This document shows positions 20,040 through 25,223 of a stretch of DNA of 64,000 nucleotides, piece after piece. Position 1 is the first letter of the stretch, and each line of letters opens with the position of its first letter. The notes beneath the pieces are model-generated. The model ran no database searches, was not told the DNA's origin, and saw nothing but the letters and a program-made list of their open reading frames with translations. The position numbers and the translations under genes are program-made. Location of the stretch: assembly GCF_001263335.1 (NCBI RefSeq), contig NZ_LGVW01000034.1:1-64000 (forward strand), read 5' to 3'. The stretch comes from Dichelobacter nodosus. GTDB lineage: Bacteria; Pseudomonadota; Gammaproteobacteria; Cardiobacteriales; Cardiobacteriaceae.

Positions 20040-20504
20040 TTAAAAACGCCCCGTATGACCAAATCCACCGCTGCCGCGCGTTGATTGTTTTTGATCAAAC
20101 GATTCCACCGGAAAAAGTTGCGCTTGAGCAATCGGCAGAAATAATAATTGTGCGATACGTTCGCCCAAAGTGACGGTATAAGGCGTTTGGCTGCGATTCC
20201 ACAACGGAATTTTTAATTCTCCTTGATAATCGCTATCGATCAGTCCTACCAAATTTCCCAAAACAATGCCGTGTTTATAACCCAAACCCGAACGCGGTAA
20301 AACGATGCCGCAATAATTCGGATCGGCAATGTGAAACGCCAAACCGCTGCCGATTAAACGGCATTCATCAGCCGCCAGCACAATGGATTCTTCTGCAAAA
20401 ACGGCGCGAATATCCAGCGCCGCGCTGCCGCTTGTCGCGTAAGTAGGTAACGGAATTTCACCGCCTAAACGCGGATCTAAAATTTTATAGGGAACTGCAA
20501 TCAT
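20040..20504 (-). CDS. dut: dUTP diphosphatase
   Basis: A 154-residue trimeric dUTPase that converts dUTP to dUMP and keeps uracil out of DNA. Motifs are visible in order: [43 protein letters not shown] and the C-terminal arm [14 protein letters not shown]. It overlaps coaBC by 20 bases, the usual gammaproteobacterial arrangement. Confidence 0.96.
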
Positions 20505-21681
20505 TTTTTTGGTAACACGTTAAAATATAATCTAAAATTTGTTGCGCAATTAATGCTTTAGATTGAGTGGGCAGCGTTATTTCGCCGCCGGCGCCAATCA
20601 TCGTTACGCTGTTGGTATCGCTTCCAAAAACGTGTTGACGAACATCATTGGCAATAATCATATCTAAATTTTTACGTTGTTTTTTGGCGCGCGCATAATC
20701 GAGTAAATGCTCCGTTTCTGCGGCAAAACCAACGGTAAAAGGACGATTTGCGGCAGCGGCAACGCTGGCAATAATGTCCGGATTTTCAATTAAAGTCAGC
20801 GGCGCAAGACCGTGTACACTTTTCTTGATTTTTTCCGCTGCCGGCTGCGCAACACGATAATCGGCAACGGCTGCCGCGCCGATAAAAATATCCGTATCCG
20901 CTAAAACAGAATGCACCGCGTCATACATTTCCAGCGCGGTGTTTACGGTAATCAATCGGCATTGTTTGGGCGGCGCTACATTGCTGATGCCGCTGATTAA
21001 CGTTACTTTTGCACCGCGGGCGAGGGCGTTTTTGGCTAATTCGTAGCCCATTTTCCCCGAACTATGATTAGAAATATAACGCACGGGATCGATGGGTTCG
21101 CGCGTGGCGCCGGCGGTAATCGTCAAACGAATGTTTTGCCAATCTTGCGCGGTTAAATGAGGTAAAGCGGCAATAATTTCTTCGGGTTCTAACATTCTGC
21201 CCAAACCGCTTTCGCCACAGGCTTGTTCGCCGTAAGCAACGGGTAATACGTGATGTTTGGGATGACGACTCAAAATGGCAATATTTTCCTGAGTTGCGGG
21301 GTGATGCCACATCATATGATTCATTGCCGGCGCGATGACGATTTCTGCATCGGTTGCAAGATAAAGCGTTGTTAATAAATCATCAGCGATGCCGTGCGCG
21401 AGTTTGGCGATGGTATTTGCCGTTGCCGGCGCAATCAACAAAATATCTGCCCAGCGAGCGAGTTCGATATGGCTCATCGCCGCTTCTGCATTGGCATCGA
21501 ATAAATCGTGGCGCGGTGCAAGTCCCGTTATCGCTTGTAGAGTTTCTTCGGTAACGAATGTGCGCGCGGATTCGGTTAAAACGCACTGAACGCGGTGGTT
21601 TTGTTTATTCAGTTCTCGAGCGAGTAAAATTGATTTATAAGCAGCAATGCCGCCACAAATGCCGAGTATGATTTGGCTCAT
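20485..21681 (-). CDS. coaBC: bifunctional phosphopantothenoylcysteine decarboxylase / phosphopantothenate-cysteine ligase
   Basis: A 398-residue CoA biosynthesis enzyme. The N-terminal flavin decarboxylase (CoaC) carries GGIAAYKS and APAMNHMMW with the catalytic region [20 protein letters not shown]. The C-terminal ligase (CoaB) has [24 protein letters not shown]. It is transcribed away from the REC-RadC gene, so radC keeps its common position next to coaBC even though it is fused to another domain. Confidence 0.95.
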
Positions 21682-21729: not shown

Positions 21730-21910
21730 TAGGCCGGTTTTTCCCAGATTAGCGCGATAACAATAATCCCTGTATGATCACGCAGGTGAAAACCGCTCAA
21801 TTATAAACAGTGATTGTATTCTACGGTCTTATGCCAGAAAAACGGAAATCGATCAGCCTTTTTGGGTGGAGCCGATGCTGGTAAAAAACAAAAAATTTGA
21901 GGTTATTTAG

Positions 21911-23116
21911 ATGATTAAAACTGCTTTGATTGTTGATGACTCCCGTTTGGCAAGACATACGCTAAGGCTCTTGCTCGAAAAACATGGTATTACAGTCAGT
22001 CAAGCGCAAGGTGTTTTGGAAGGTGAGAAGATTATTTTTAATCAGGCAATTCCCGATGTCGTTTTTATGGACGTCATGATGCCAGAATTAGATGGTTTTG
22101 AAGGGCTTGCTCGTCTGCGCAAAAATCCATTAACACACGCTCTACCCGTGATTATGTATTCCGGCGATGTTTCCGAAGAAGCCAGACGCAAAGCCAAAGA
22201 AAACGGCGCAACGGGTTATTTGCCAAAACCAGTTGAACCGGAGCGATTGAATATTTTAGTTACCGCGCTGGCAAAACATGTTCATCACAACGAAGCGCAA
22301 GCGCCCGCGCCGCAGCCCGCGCACGAAGAACCCGCTGTTGCGGTGGAAAAACCCGAAATGCCGGCAGCTCAAGAAACGGTTCATCAAGCAGAAACAGTTC
22401 ACGAATCTTCTCAAGAAGCGCTGGTTGAAGAAAATATCACCAGCGATCCATCATTGGATATGCCGCGCGAACGCATTTTGCGACTCGGCGCGAGTGCTTT
22501 ATCTGATGCGGAATTATTGGCAATTTTGTTGCGCACGGGCGTTATTGGTAAACCCGTTTTAGCGTTTGCACAAGAATTAATTGCTTCTCGCGGCGGTTTG
22601 GTTGGTTTATTAACGAGCCGTAAAGAACATTTATTACCCATCAAAGGCATTGGTCAAGCAAAAACTGCCGAAATTTTAGCGGTAACAGAATTATGTAAAC
22701 GTTTTATCGCCGCCGATTTGCAATTACCAGAATGGCAGTTTTCATCGGCTGATGACGTGAGAAACTTTTTATTGATGCATTATAAAGGGCTGGGTTTTGA
22801 AGAAGTTGCCATTTTGTTGCTCAATCAAAAAAATCAATATTTGGCGTACGAAAGAATCGGGCAGGCTTTTGGTTCGGAAGTAAGCCAAGTGAATGTATCG
22901 TGCCGGAAATTGGTGAAATCCGTTCTTGATTCAGATGCAGCCGCGGTGGTTTTGGTGCATAATCACCCCGCGCAATCTACGGAACTATCTGAATCTGACC
23001 TGCAAACTACAAAATTTATTGAAAACTTCTTGAAACCTTTGGGCGTGCGTTTATTGGATCATTTCGTTGTGGCAGGCAATCAGGTGATTTCTCTGCGCGA
23101 AACTGGAGACTGGTAA
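21911..23116 (+). CDS. response-regulator receiver domain fused to RadC (JAB/MPN)
   Basis: A continuous 401-residue frame. Residues 1-122 form a receiver (REC) domain with the acidic pair D9/D10, phospho-acceptor D54 (VFMDVMMPELDG), S84 (MYSGD) and K106 (LPKP). Residues 123-182 are an Ala/Pro/Glu-rich linker. Residues 183-401 are RadC: MPRERILRLGASALSDAELL, a helix-hairpin-helix (LPIKGIGQAKTAEILAV, about 242-258) and the JAMM-like metal motif H350-N-H352-P...S360-x-x-D363. The usual RadC PRE before this motif reads CRK (331-333), so the conserved Glu is Lys. The start has TTTGAGG upstream, which is duplicated before the next gene. Radiation repair is not an established RadC role; its function is unsettled. 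Position beside coaBC is the normal radC site. Confidence 0.92.
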   Translation: MIKTALIVDDSRLARHTLRLLLEKHGITVSQAQGVLEGEKIIFNQAIPDVVFMDVMMPELDGFEGLARLRKNPLTHALPVIMYSGDVSEEARRKAKENGATGYLPKPVEPERLNILVTALAKHVHHNEAQAPAPQPAHEEPAVAVEKPEMPAAQETVHQAETVHESSQEALVEENITSDPSLDMPRERILRLGASALSDAELLAILLRTGVIGKPVLAFAQELIASRGGLVGLLTSRKEHLLPIKGIGQAKTAEILAVTELCKRFIAADLQLPEWQFSSADDVRNFLLMHYKGLGFEEVAILLLNQKNQYLAYERIGQAFGSEVSQVNVSCRKLVKSVLDSDAAAVVLVHNHPAQSTELSESDLQTTKFIENFLKPLGVRLLDHFVVAGNQVISLRETGDW

Positions 23117-23133
23117 AATTTGAGGTTTTTTAA

Positions 23134-23973
23134 ATGCTTAAAACTGCTTTAATTGTAGACGACTCTCGTTTAGCGCGACTGACGTTAAAGAAATTACTCG
23201 AAGCACATCATATCGAAGTAAACGAAGCGGACGGGGTTATTGATGCTGAACGTTGGATTGTCAACCATCTTTTGCCAGACCTCGTTTTTATGGACGTGAT
23301 GATGCCGGATTTAGATGGATTTGAAGGACTTGCTCGTCTGCGTAAAAATCCTGAAACCCGAGATCTTCCCGTAATTATGTATTCGGGGGATATTTCTGAA
23401 GAAGCGCGCAAAAAAGCGCGCGATAACGGTGCCACTGGTTATTTGCCAAAACCGGCGGACTCCAATCGTTTGGCGCATTTAATTAATGCGCTCAATGAAC
23501 GTTTGGGCAGTCAAGAAACCGATGATGCGACTGTTGAATCGCTTGCCGAAGAAATTCCAGAACCGACAAAAACGACAACCGCGCATGCGGCGCGCGAAAC
23601 CATTTCTTTCGATCCCGCGCACCCCGTTGCTGCAGAAATTTCATTTAATACCGCAACACCCGCAGCGCCTGTCATTTCCAACGCTGAATTAAAAGAAATC
23701 AAACGCCGAATTGAAGCTTTGGAAAATTATCGTCCAGAACCAGCGGTTGATTTAACGTTGAGACGGAGAATTGATGATTTAGAAAATCGTCAATCTTCTC
23801 AAGAACGCAATAATAATGCGCATTTAGAAGATGCTTTGGAACGTCAACGTTTGGATTTAGTTTTTGCACAACGCAAACTGGCAGATATGGAACGGCAGCT
23901 CAAAATAGCGTTGGGCGGCGGCGGTTTGGGCGTTGTGATGGCGTTAGCAGCGTTGGCAATTCATTTTATATAA
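23134..23973 (+). CDS. receiver-domain protein with coiled coil and C-terminal membrane tail
   Basis: A 279-residue protein. Its receiver domain (1-122; D9/D10, D54, S84, K106) is a close paralogue of the one fused to RadC just upstream, and the start-site DNA is also near identical. A low-complexity linker (about 125-180), a coiled coil (about 183-257, ELKEIKRRIEALENY and RQRLDLVFAQRKLADME) and a final hydrophobic segment (about 259-279) follow. There is no DNA-binding or enzymatic output domain. It is probably an inner-membrane-tethered phospho-switch for the kinase encoded next. It lies 17 bases after the REC-RadC stop. Confidence 0.88.
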   Translation: MLKTALIVDDSRLARLTLKKLLEAHHIEVNEADGVIDAERWIVNHLLPDLVFMDVMMPDLDGFEGLARLRKNPETRDLPVIMYSGDISEEARKKARDNGATGYLPKPADSNRLAHLINALNERLGSQETDDATVESLAEEIPEPTKTTTAHAARETISFDPAHPVAAEISFNTATPAAPVISNAELKEIKRRIEALENYRPEPAVDLTLRRRIDDLENRQSSQERNNNAHLEDALERQRLDLVFAQRKLADMERQLKIALGGGGLGVVMALAALAIHFI

Positions 23974-23987
23974 AAGCAAATGTACGT

Positions 23988-25223
23988 ATGAATTTTTTGA
24001 TTTTTGGCGGCTGGGGATTAGCCGCCATTTTATTGGTCGTCATAATGTATCGTTTGCGTGTTGAACAAAATTTATTGGACTGGTTGCGCGATCGCCCGCA
24101 AGAATTGCCTCCTGATTTACCCGCGCCGTTAGATGAAATTTCGCGACTTTCTTATCGCCGTTTTGAGCGTACCAAAAAACACAAAAAGCGCCTCAATAAC
24201 TATATTTCGTTATTTCGTGAACTCATTGATGCGATGCCTGACGCGGCATTTGTGATTGATAAACAAGGGCGATTGGCGGATTTTAATCATCACGCGCAAT
24301 TATTATTTCATTTAAATCATCGTACTGATATTAATCGTCCCATCGATCATTTTATCCGCACGGAAAGTATTGGTTCATTTTGGCAACATATTCAACAAAA
24401 TCATTTATTTATGACGCGACTCATTGTTGATGACAGTCATTGGTTAGAATTTAATATCATCTTGTTATCGCAGGGAAAAATATTGGTCATCGCGCGCGAT
24501 ATGACGCGGATTGTTGATTTAGATTTAAAACGTAAAGCGTTTATTGATAATGCTTCACATGAATTAAAAACGCCAATTACCGTAATTCGCGGTTTTTTGG
24601 AATTATTATCGGCGCAAAATTTGCCGGAATATATGCAAGTGCCGATGCGGGAAATGGTGAAACAAATCGAAAGAATGCACGGGTTGGTTCAAGATATGTT
24701 GAAACTGGCTTCGCTGGAAGAAGTGGAATCAGCGGTGAAAACGGAAGAAGTATTATTACTGCCGTTTATTGAAGAAATTGTAGCCAGTTTATTGCCGCAA
24801 TATCCTGAAAGTACAGGAATTAAAATTGGTTATGTTGAGCACATTACGCTGCAAGTAAACGCCGAAATTTTGCAATCCATGATCAGTAATTTATTGGTAA
24901 ATGCTTTGGTGTACGCGCACAGTAAAAATCCGATTGAAATCAATGCGGCGTGTACGGAAGAATGGTGTTTAATTGCAGTAAACGATGACGGCATCGGCAT
25001 TGCGCCGGAACATATTTCACGCGTTACCGAACGTTTTTATCGCGTTGATAGCGGACGATTGCGCGTGACGGGAACGGGATTGGGTTTATCGATTGTAAAA
25101 CACGGTGCGGAAATTCACGGCGGACGTTTGGTGATTAAATCAAAAGTGGATTTGGGATCGTTATTTACCATTGAATTGCCCATTTCGCGCGTAATAAAGC
25201 GCGAAATGGAGCCACAAAATTAA
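23988..25223 (+). CDS. PhoR-like sensor histidine kinase
   Basis: A 411-residue kinase. It has one N-terminal membrane segment (about 2-20), a linker, a PAS domain (about 78-175, from LIDAMPDAAFVIDKQGRLADFN), a HisKA H-box (FIDNASHELKTPITVIRGFL), and a HATPase domain with N-box LLVNALVYA, G1 NDDGIGIAPEH and G2 GTGLGLSIVKHG. The architecture matches PhoR, but no PhoB-type winged-helix regulator is adjacent; the two upstream receivers lack DNA-binding domains. It follows the receiver gene by 14 bases and its end overlaps the convergent yhhQ by 4 bases. Confidence 0.9.
   Translation: MNFLIFGGWGLAAILLVVIMYRLRVEQNLLDWLRDRPQELPPDLPAPLDEISRLSYRRFERTKKHKKRLNNYISLFRELIDAMPDAAFVIDKQGRLADFNHHAQLLFHLNHRTDINRPIDHFIRTESIGSFWQHIQQNHLFMTRLIVDDSHWLEFNIILLSQGKILVIARDMTRIVDLDLKRKAFIDNASHELKTPITVIRGFLELLSAQNLPEYMQVPMREMVKQIERMHGLVQDMLKLASLEEVESAVKTEEVLLLPFIEEIVASLLPQYPESTGIKIGYVEHITLQVNAEILQSMISNLLVNALVYAHSKNPIEINAACTEEWCLIAVNDDGIGIAPEHISRVTERFYRVDSGRLRVTGTGLGLSIVKHGAEIHGGRLVIKSKVDLGSLFTIELPISRVIKREMEPQN

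Follow-up and report, generated by a model that had tools for sequence, protein, structure and literature searches.

RadC is a widespread protein, often induced alongside competence genes, for which there is no agreed function. One review (PMC5512222) presents RadC as a JAB domain devoid of the ubiquitin-tail groove, probably acting on nucleic acids, and describes it as a module of the multidomain polyvalent proteins of mobile elements, where it is fused to HhH, ArdC-N or helicase domains. The literature leaves its activity unsettled (PMC5512222; PMC6237807). A radC mutant of V. cholerae transforms normally, the gene being often competence-induced (PMC6237807), and the same paper likewise cites radC of S. 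pneumoniae and of H. influenzae as dispensable for transformation.

The gene described here lies in a window of 64,000 nucleotides from Dichelobacter nodosus (the whole stretch of DNA that was analysed), and it can be set against several known systems. As in the polyvalent proteins, RadC is in this case one module of a multidomain protein. Polyvalent proteins, however, belong to conjugative elements, and no receiver fusion figures among those described in the sections on RadC (PMC5512222). A second likeness is with response regulators of the PleD/CheB type, built as receiver, linker and enzyme: here too an N-terminal receiver with all its catalytic residues is followed by a flexible linker and by a C-terminal enzyme-like module. 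The difference resides in the output, RadC/JAB, which we found in no other response regulator. Compared, finally, with the RadC/UPF0758 family itself (TIGR00608, PF04002 with PF20582; 2qlc), the protein has the full-length module, encoded at the usual locus and equipped with the JAMM ligands, but, unlike that family, it carries a receiver at its N-terminus.

A receiver and RadC in one reading frame

The fusion gene (21911..23116, + strand) is an unbroken frame of 401 codons that begins with ATG and has no stop between the domains; Pfam finds Response_reg, UPF0758_N and RadC in a single chain of 401 residues. This confirms an in-frame REC-RadC fusion at the usual radC locus, with both domains intact. 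A preliminary description of this DNA had read a complete receiver (with D54 and K106) and a whole RadC in one frame at the normal radC locus, and it was right on each point: the frame is continuous, domains and residues are present, and the placement, beside a divergent coaBC, is that seen in relatives. The 60-residue linker that it announced measures about 58 residues (122-179). The fusion is the sole RadC of this Cardiobacteriaceae genome of 1.45 Mb.

The receiver, REC1 (residues 1-125; 21911..22285, + strand), is recognized by PF00072 over residues 6-114 (E 3e-24) and has its acidic pair D9/D10, the phosphoacceptor D54, S84 and K106 all in place. An AlphaFold model gives it the (beta-alpha)5 fold of receivers, with a pLDDT of 95-98 over residues 1-120, and Foldseek aligns this model with RR468 (3gl9) at a TM-score of 0.92 by target. 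Two positions of the alpha-1 helix that are conserved in the other family members have changed, L16 to H and K/R20 to L. The alpha-1 face of a receiver is usually the one on which the kinase docks.

The RadC half comprises the helical UPF0758_N domain (residues 180-252; 22448..22666, + strand; PF20582, E 6e-21) and the JAB/MPN domain proper (residues 278-399; 22742..23107, + strand; PF04002, E 2e-28), in which the JAMM ligands E...HxHP...S..D are intact as E297, H350, H352, S360 and D363. The curated model TIGR00608 gives the fusion 162 bits, above its cut-off of 133.85, and the equivalog NF000642 gives it 179.4 bits, narrowly under a cut-off of 180. Motifs that are conserved in RadC, without being a formal criterion of the family, are altered: HNHPAQ stands in place of HNHPSG, and VNVSCRK, at residues 327-333 (22889-22909), in place of VHPRE. 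The latter motif is absent from all nine Cardiobacteriaceae RadCs (the fusion and loci L114-L122), most of which have V.V..R, with the metal ligands kept. No other RadC of the family has diverged as far as that of the fusion, which scores 102 bits where the others score 115-133. Alignment with the family RadCs displays a three-residue insertion in it, as well as a changed stretch around residues 318-333; from this divergence it appears that its activity may be relaxed. At the scale of the order, radC is absent from 22 of 32 genomes, namely from 3 of 12 within the family and from 19 of 20 outside it.

Between the two halves extends a linker rich in Ala, Glu and Pro (about residues 126-179; 22286..22447, + strand), predicted to be disordered, with a pLDDT below 50 over residues 138-196. 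The AlphaFold model of the entire protein (mean pLDDT 82.5) consists of two confidently folded domains joined by this disordered tether, and its pTM of 0.51 means that it predicts no set placement of one domain relative to the other. Submitted to Foldseek, the halves match receiver structures and, as the best PDB match that is not a receiver, 2qlc, a crystal structure of RadC.

We looked for a second protein of this kind in more than 700 other Pseudomonadota genomes (overlapping sets of 57 relatives, 369 genomes of the class and 398 of the phylum, the class search bearing on the best 150 or so matches listed), as well as in a plasmid and a viral collection, and none came up. Matches at 80 loci from GTDB genomes were either RadC-only or receiver-only. 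Nine RadC matches placed in long or upstream-extended frames were read: beyond the normal RadC, the N-terminal extensions look like spurious upstream frames, with no receiver. The literature searched contained no REC-RadC protein either, in line with the preliminary description, which knew of none. REC-RadC is a new domain architecture made of two well-known modules, apparently undescribed, in a search that covered Pseudomonadota and, unevenly, other phyla.

Where the receiver came from

The divergent neighbour that marks the normal radC locus is coaBC (20485..21681, - strand; TIGR00521, 445 bits), which adjoins radC in relatives too. In all eight other Cardiobacteriaceae that have RadC, radC is a separate gene of ordinary length, with divergent coaBC on one side and, immediately downstream, a receiver gene, rr. 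An orthologue of rr (receiver, coiled coil and transmembrane segment) is found in 11 of 11 relatives, hence in 12 of 12 family genomes, and the three that are devoid of radC retain it. In the present genome this gene, rr2 (23134..23973, + strand), codes for 279 residues comprising a receiver (PF00072), a coiled coil and a C-terminal membrane anchor (hydropathy peak of 2.18 at residue 258). A relative at the level of the order, which has no radC, likewise carries an rr gene next to coaBC (L112, L113 and L123 are the loci noted for rr). In relative G005, coaBC is distributed over two open frames (L116:4616-5826), as a result of a frameshift, a sequencing error or a real split.

The parent of REC1 is this adjoining gene. 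The receiver of rr2 is the nearest relative of REC1, with 68-70% protein identity, and comparison with the rr protein indicates that both the receiver of the fusion and the start of its linker were copied from rr, the blastp match of rr2 reaching residue 157; the coiled coil and the membrane anchor of rr are missing from the fusion. Before the fusion lies a copied leader with its ribosome-binding site (21892..21909, + strand), identical at 17 of 18 nucleotides to the original rr leader (23115..23132, + strand), which overlaps the stop codon of radC. This match scores higher than all 200 of 200 shuffles. Upstream of the copied leader, CTGGTAAAA (21878..21886, + strand), the same 9-mer as at 23110-23118, is probably a trace of the 3' end of radC, made of its last codon and stop; the repeat, found post hoc, was reached in 15 of 5000 shuffles. 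A mini-ORF at 21832-21885 (MP...W, then a stop) was considered as a vestigial radC and set aside, the sequence match being too short to claim. A receiver tree, built on a short alignment, does not join REC1 and rr2 as sisters. The origin of the fusion is thereby explained: its receiver duplicates that of the adjoining downstream gene. The preliminary description, which had correctly taken the fusion as real, had missed this origin.

The normal order in the family was coaBC (divergent), radC and the membrane-anchored receiver gene rr, accompanied or not by a PhoR-like kinase. Comparison of the genomes shows that a copy of the 5' half of rr, comprising its leader, its receiver and some of its linker, now runs in frame into the beginning of radC. 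In the simplest history, the radC/rr region would have been duplicated in tandem, and the first of the two radC copies would then have been lost. A spacer of 17 nucleotides separates the fusion from rr2, which makes co-transcription likely; scans for promoters and terminators yielded signals at chance level only.

Comparison of the REC1 and rr2 receivers gives a dN of 0.27 and a dS of 1.03 (z 5.7 for raw proportions). Such values tell of purifying selection since the duplication, that is, of a long-held constraint, and the fusion is no recent accident. REC1 has evolved faster than rr2 (branch of 0.52 against 0.20). Taken together, the evidence favours a function for the fusion, with some change of role.

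What the receiver may do to RadC

The interpretation that we retain, with our confidence evenly divided, is that of a lineage-specific fusion, born of a duplication, where the phosphorylated receiver would most likely alter the activity or the location of RadC. The product would be one soluble chain of 44 kDa, with the receiver flexibly tethered to RadC. Phosphorylation would take place at D54 of REC1, and would affect RadC by a changed contact, or perhaps because REC1 pairs with the closely related receiver of its sister rr2, which is anchored in the membrane. Phosphorylation control of RadC is plausible in this context. We are more hesitant about a sharper version, only tentatively proposed, in which RadC would be a phosphorylation-switched enzyme, with a signal of the Chp/Pil type or from PhoR toggling the JAB protein or recruiting it to the membrane beside its sister receiver. 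If this were true, the fusion would be the first known case of a response regulator whose output is RadC. A receiver with a mutable phosphorylation site would moreover provide a handle on RadC, as D54 variants could switch it controllably. The conserved radC-rr neighbourhood likewise suggests that RadC belongs in a signalling context, as evidence that is not independent of the fusion.

The receiver could also be a passive passenger: radC would depend on the ribosome-binding site and start of rr, the receiver would be kept for the sake of that start, and RadC would operate as it does in relatives. The faster evolution of REC1, the alteration of its alpha-1 kinase-docking residues, a flexible linker of 58 residues for which the model (pTM 0.51) gives no fixed contact and a local duplication from a neighbour, which is an accident-prone route, are all in keeping with this account. 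We nevertheless deem it rather unlikely, because loss of D54 or K106, or a shortening of the domain, would then be expected, whereas dN/dS is about 0.26 and all catalytic residues are kept after a dS of about 1. The 70% identity of the adjacent REC1 and rr2 receivers evokes yet another role, where the fusion would act in the pathway of its sister: as a soluble protein it would draw off phosphate from the kinase of rr2, or compete for that kinase, while RadC would affect stability only. This is quite improbable, as it gives no account of an intact RadC here, when 3 of the 12 family genomes and 19 of the 20 others of the order have lost it.

Little credence, to a similar degree, goes to two separate proteins produced via internal initiation, which would make the fusion frame of little importance. 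An ATG at codon 150 has an SD-like energy of -5.1, and another one at codon 184, the usual RadC start MPRER, an energy of -3.1; yet the strongest Shine-Dalgarno sequence of the frame, UUUGAGGUU, with a duplex energy of -6.3 equal to that of rr2, serves the start at 21911, and the domains are not parted by a stop. An artefact of assembly or sequencing, finally, is a natural concern with a fusion known from a single genome in 36 contigs, in one species of the genus. We hold it for extremely improbable: the receiver copies, only 70% identical in protein, make a collapsed repeat unlikely, coding is continuous, the codon-position GC of both domains agrees with that of neighbouring genes, and the locus is inside a 101-kb contig, away from its edge.

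Candidate kinases

Kinases that might phosphorylate REC1 are the adjoining PhoR-like kinase, whose main partner would probably be PhoB, or the ChpA/Pil chemosensory kinase. The former is one of four HisKA kinases in the genome, the other three of which each adjoin their own regulator. It is a sensor histidine kinase (23988..25223, + strand) whose best-scoring models are those of PhoR; TIGR02966 gives it 271 bits, below the cut-off of 334, and its orthologues likewise remain under this cut-off, with 234-295 bits. They occur in the same four of 12 family genomes as PhoU (chance of 0.002, relatedness ignored), and in three of these four (G000, G004 and G009) an orphan PhoB-like regulator lies beside orn with no kinase next to it. 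In each of these three the best relative of PhoB is this orphan, which lies at G000:C28:174921-175592 in the present genome. The receiver-TM gene is without a PhoR-like kinase in 8 of 12 family genomes. The co-occurrence with PhoU and the presence of an orphan phoB elsewhere suggest that the natural partner of the kinase is PhoB, and that it is probably the PhoR of that pair. The preliminary description had proposed this kinase as the partner of the fusion; by position the choice is obvious, but the PhoR-like score and the co-occurrence with PhoU and PhoB weaken it.

When the receivers of the genome are compared with REC1, the C-terminal receiver of ChpA and the two PilG/PilH-like proteins come closest (66-74 bits), followed by PhoB (55 bits), the names ChpA, PilG and PilH being our reading of a kinase-receiver protein of 2,550 residues that is flanked on the chromosome by a pair of short receivers. 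The proximity makes the ChpA/Pil chemosensory kinase a further candidate, and does no more than hint at a Chp/Pil link of REC1. In three family genomes the phosphate system itself looks split, its PhoR-like kinase being encoded at the radC locus and its orphan PhoB-like regulator beside orn.
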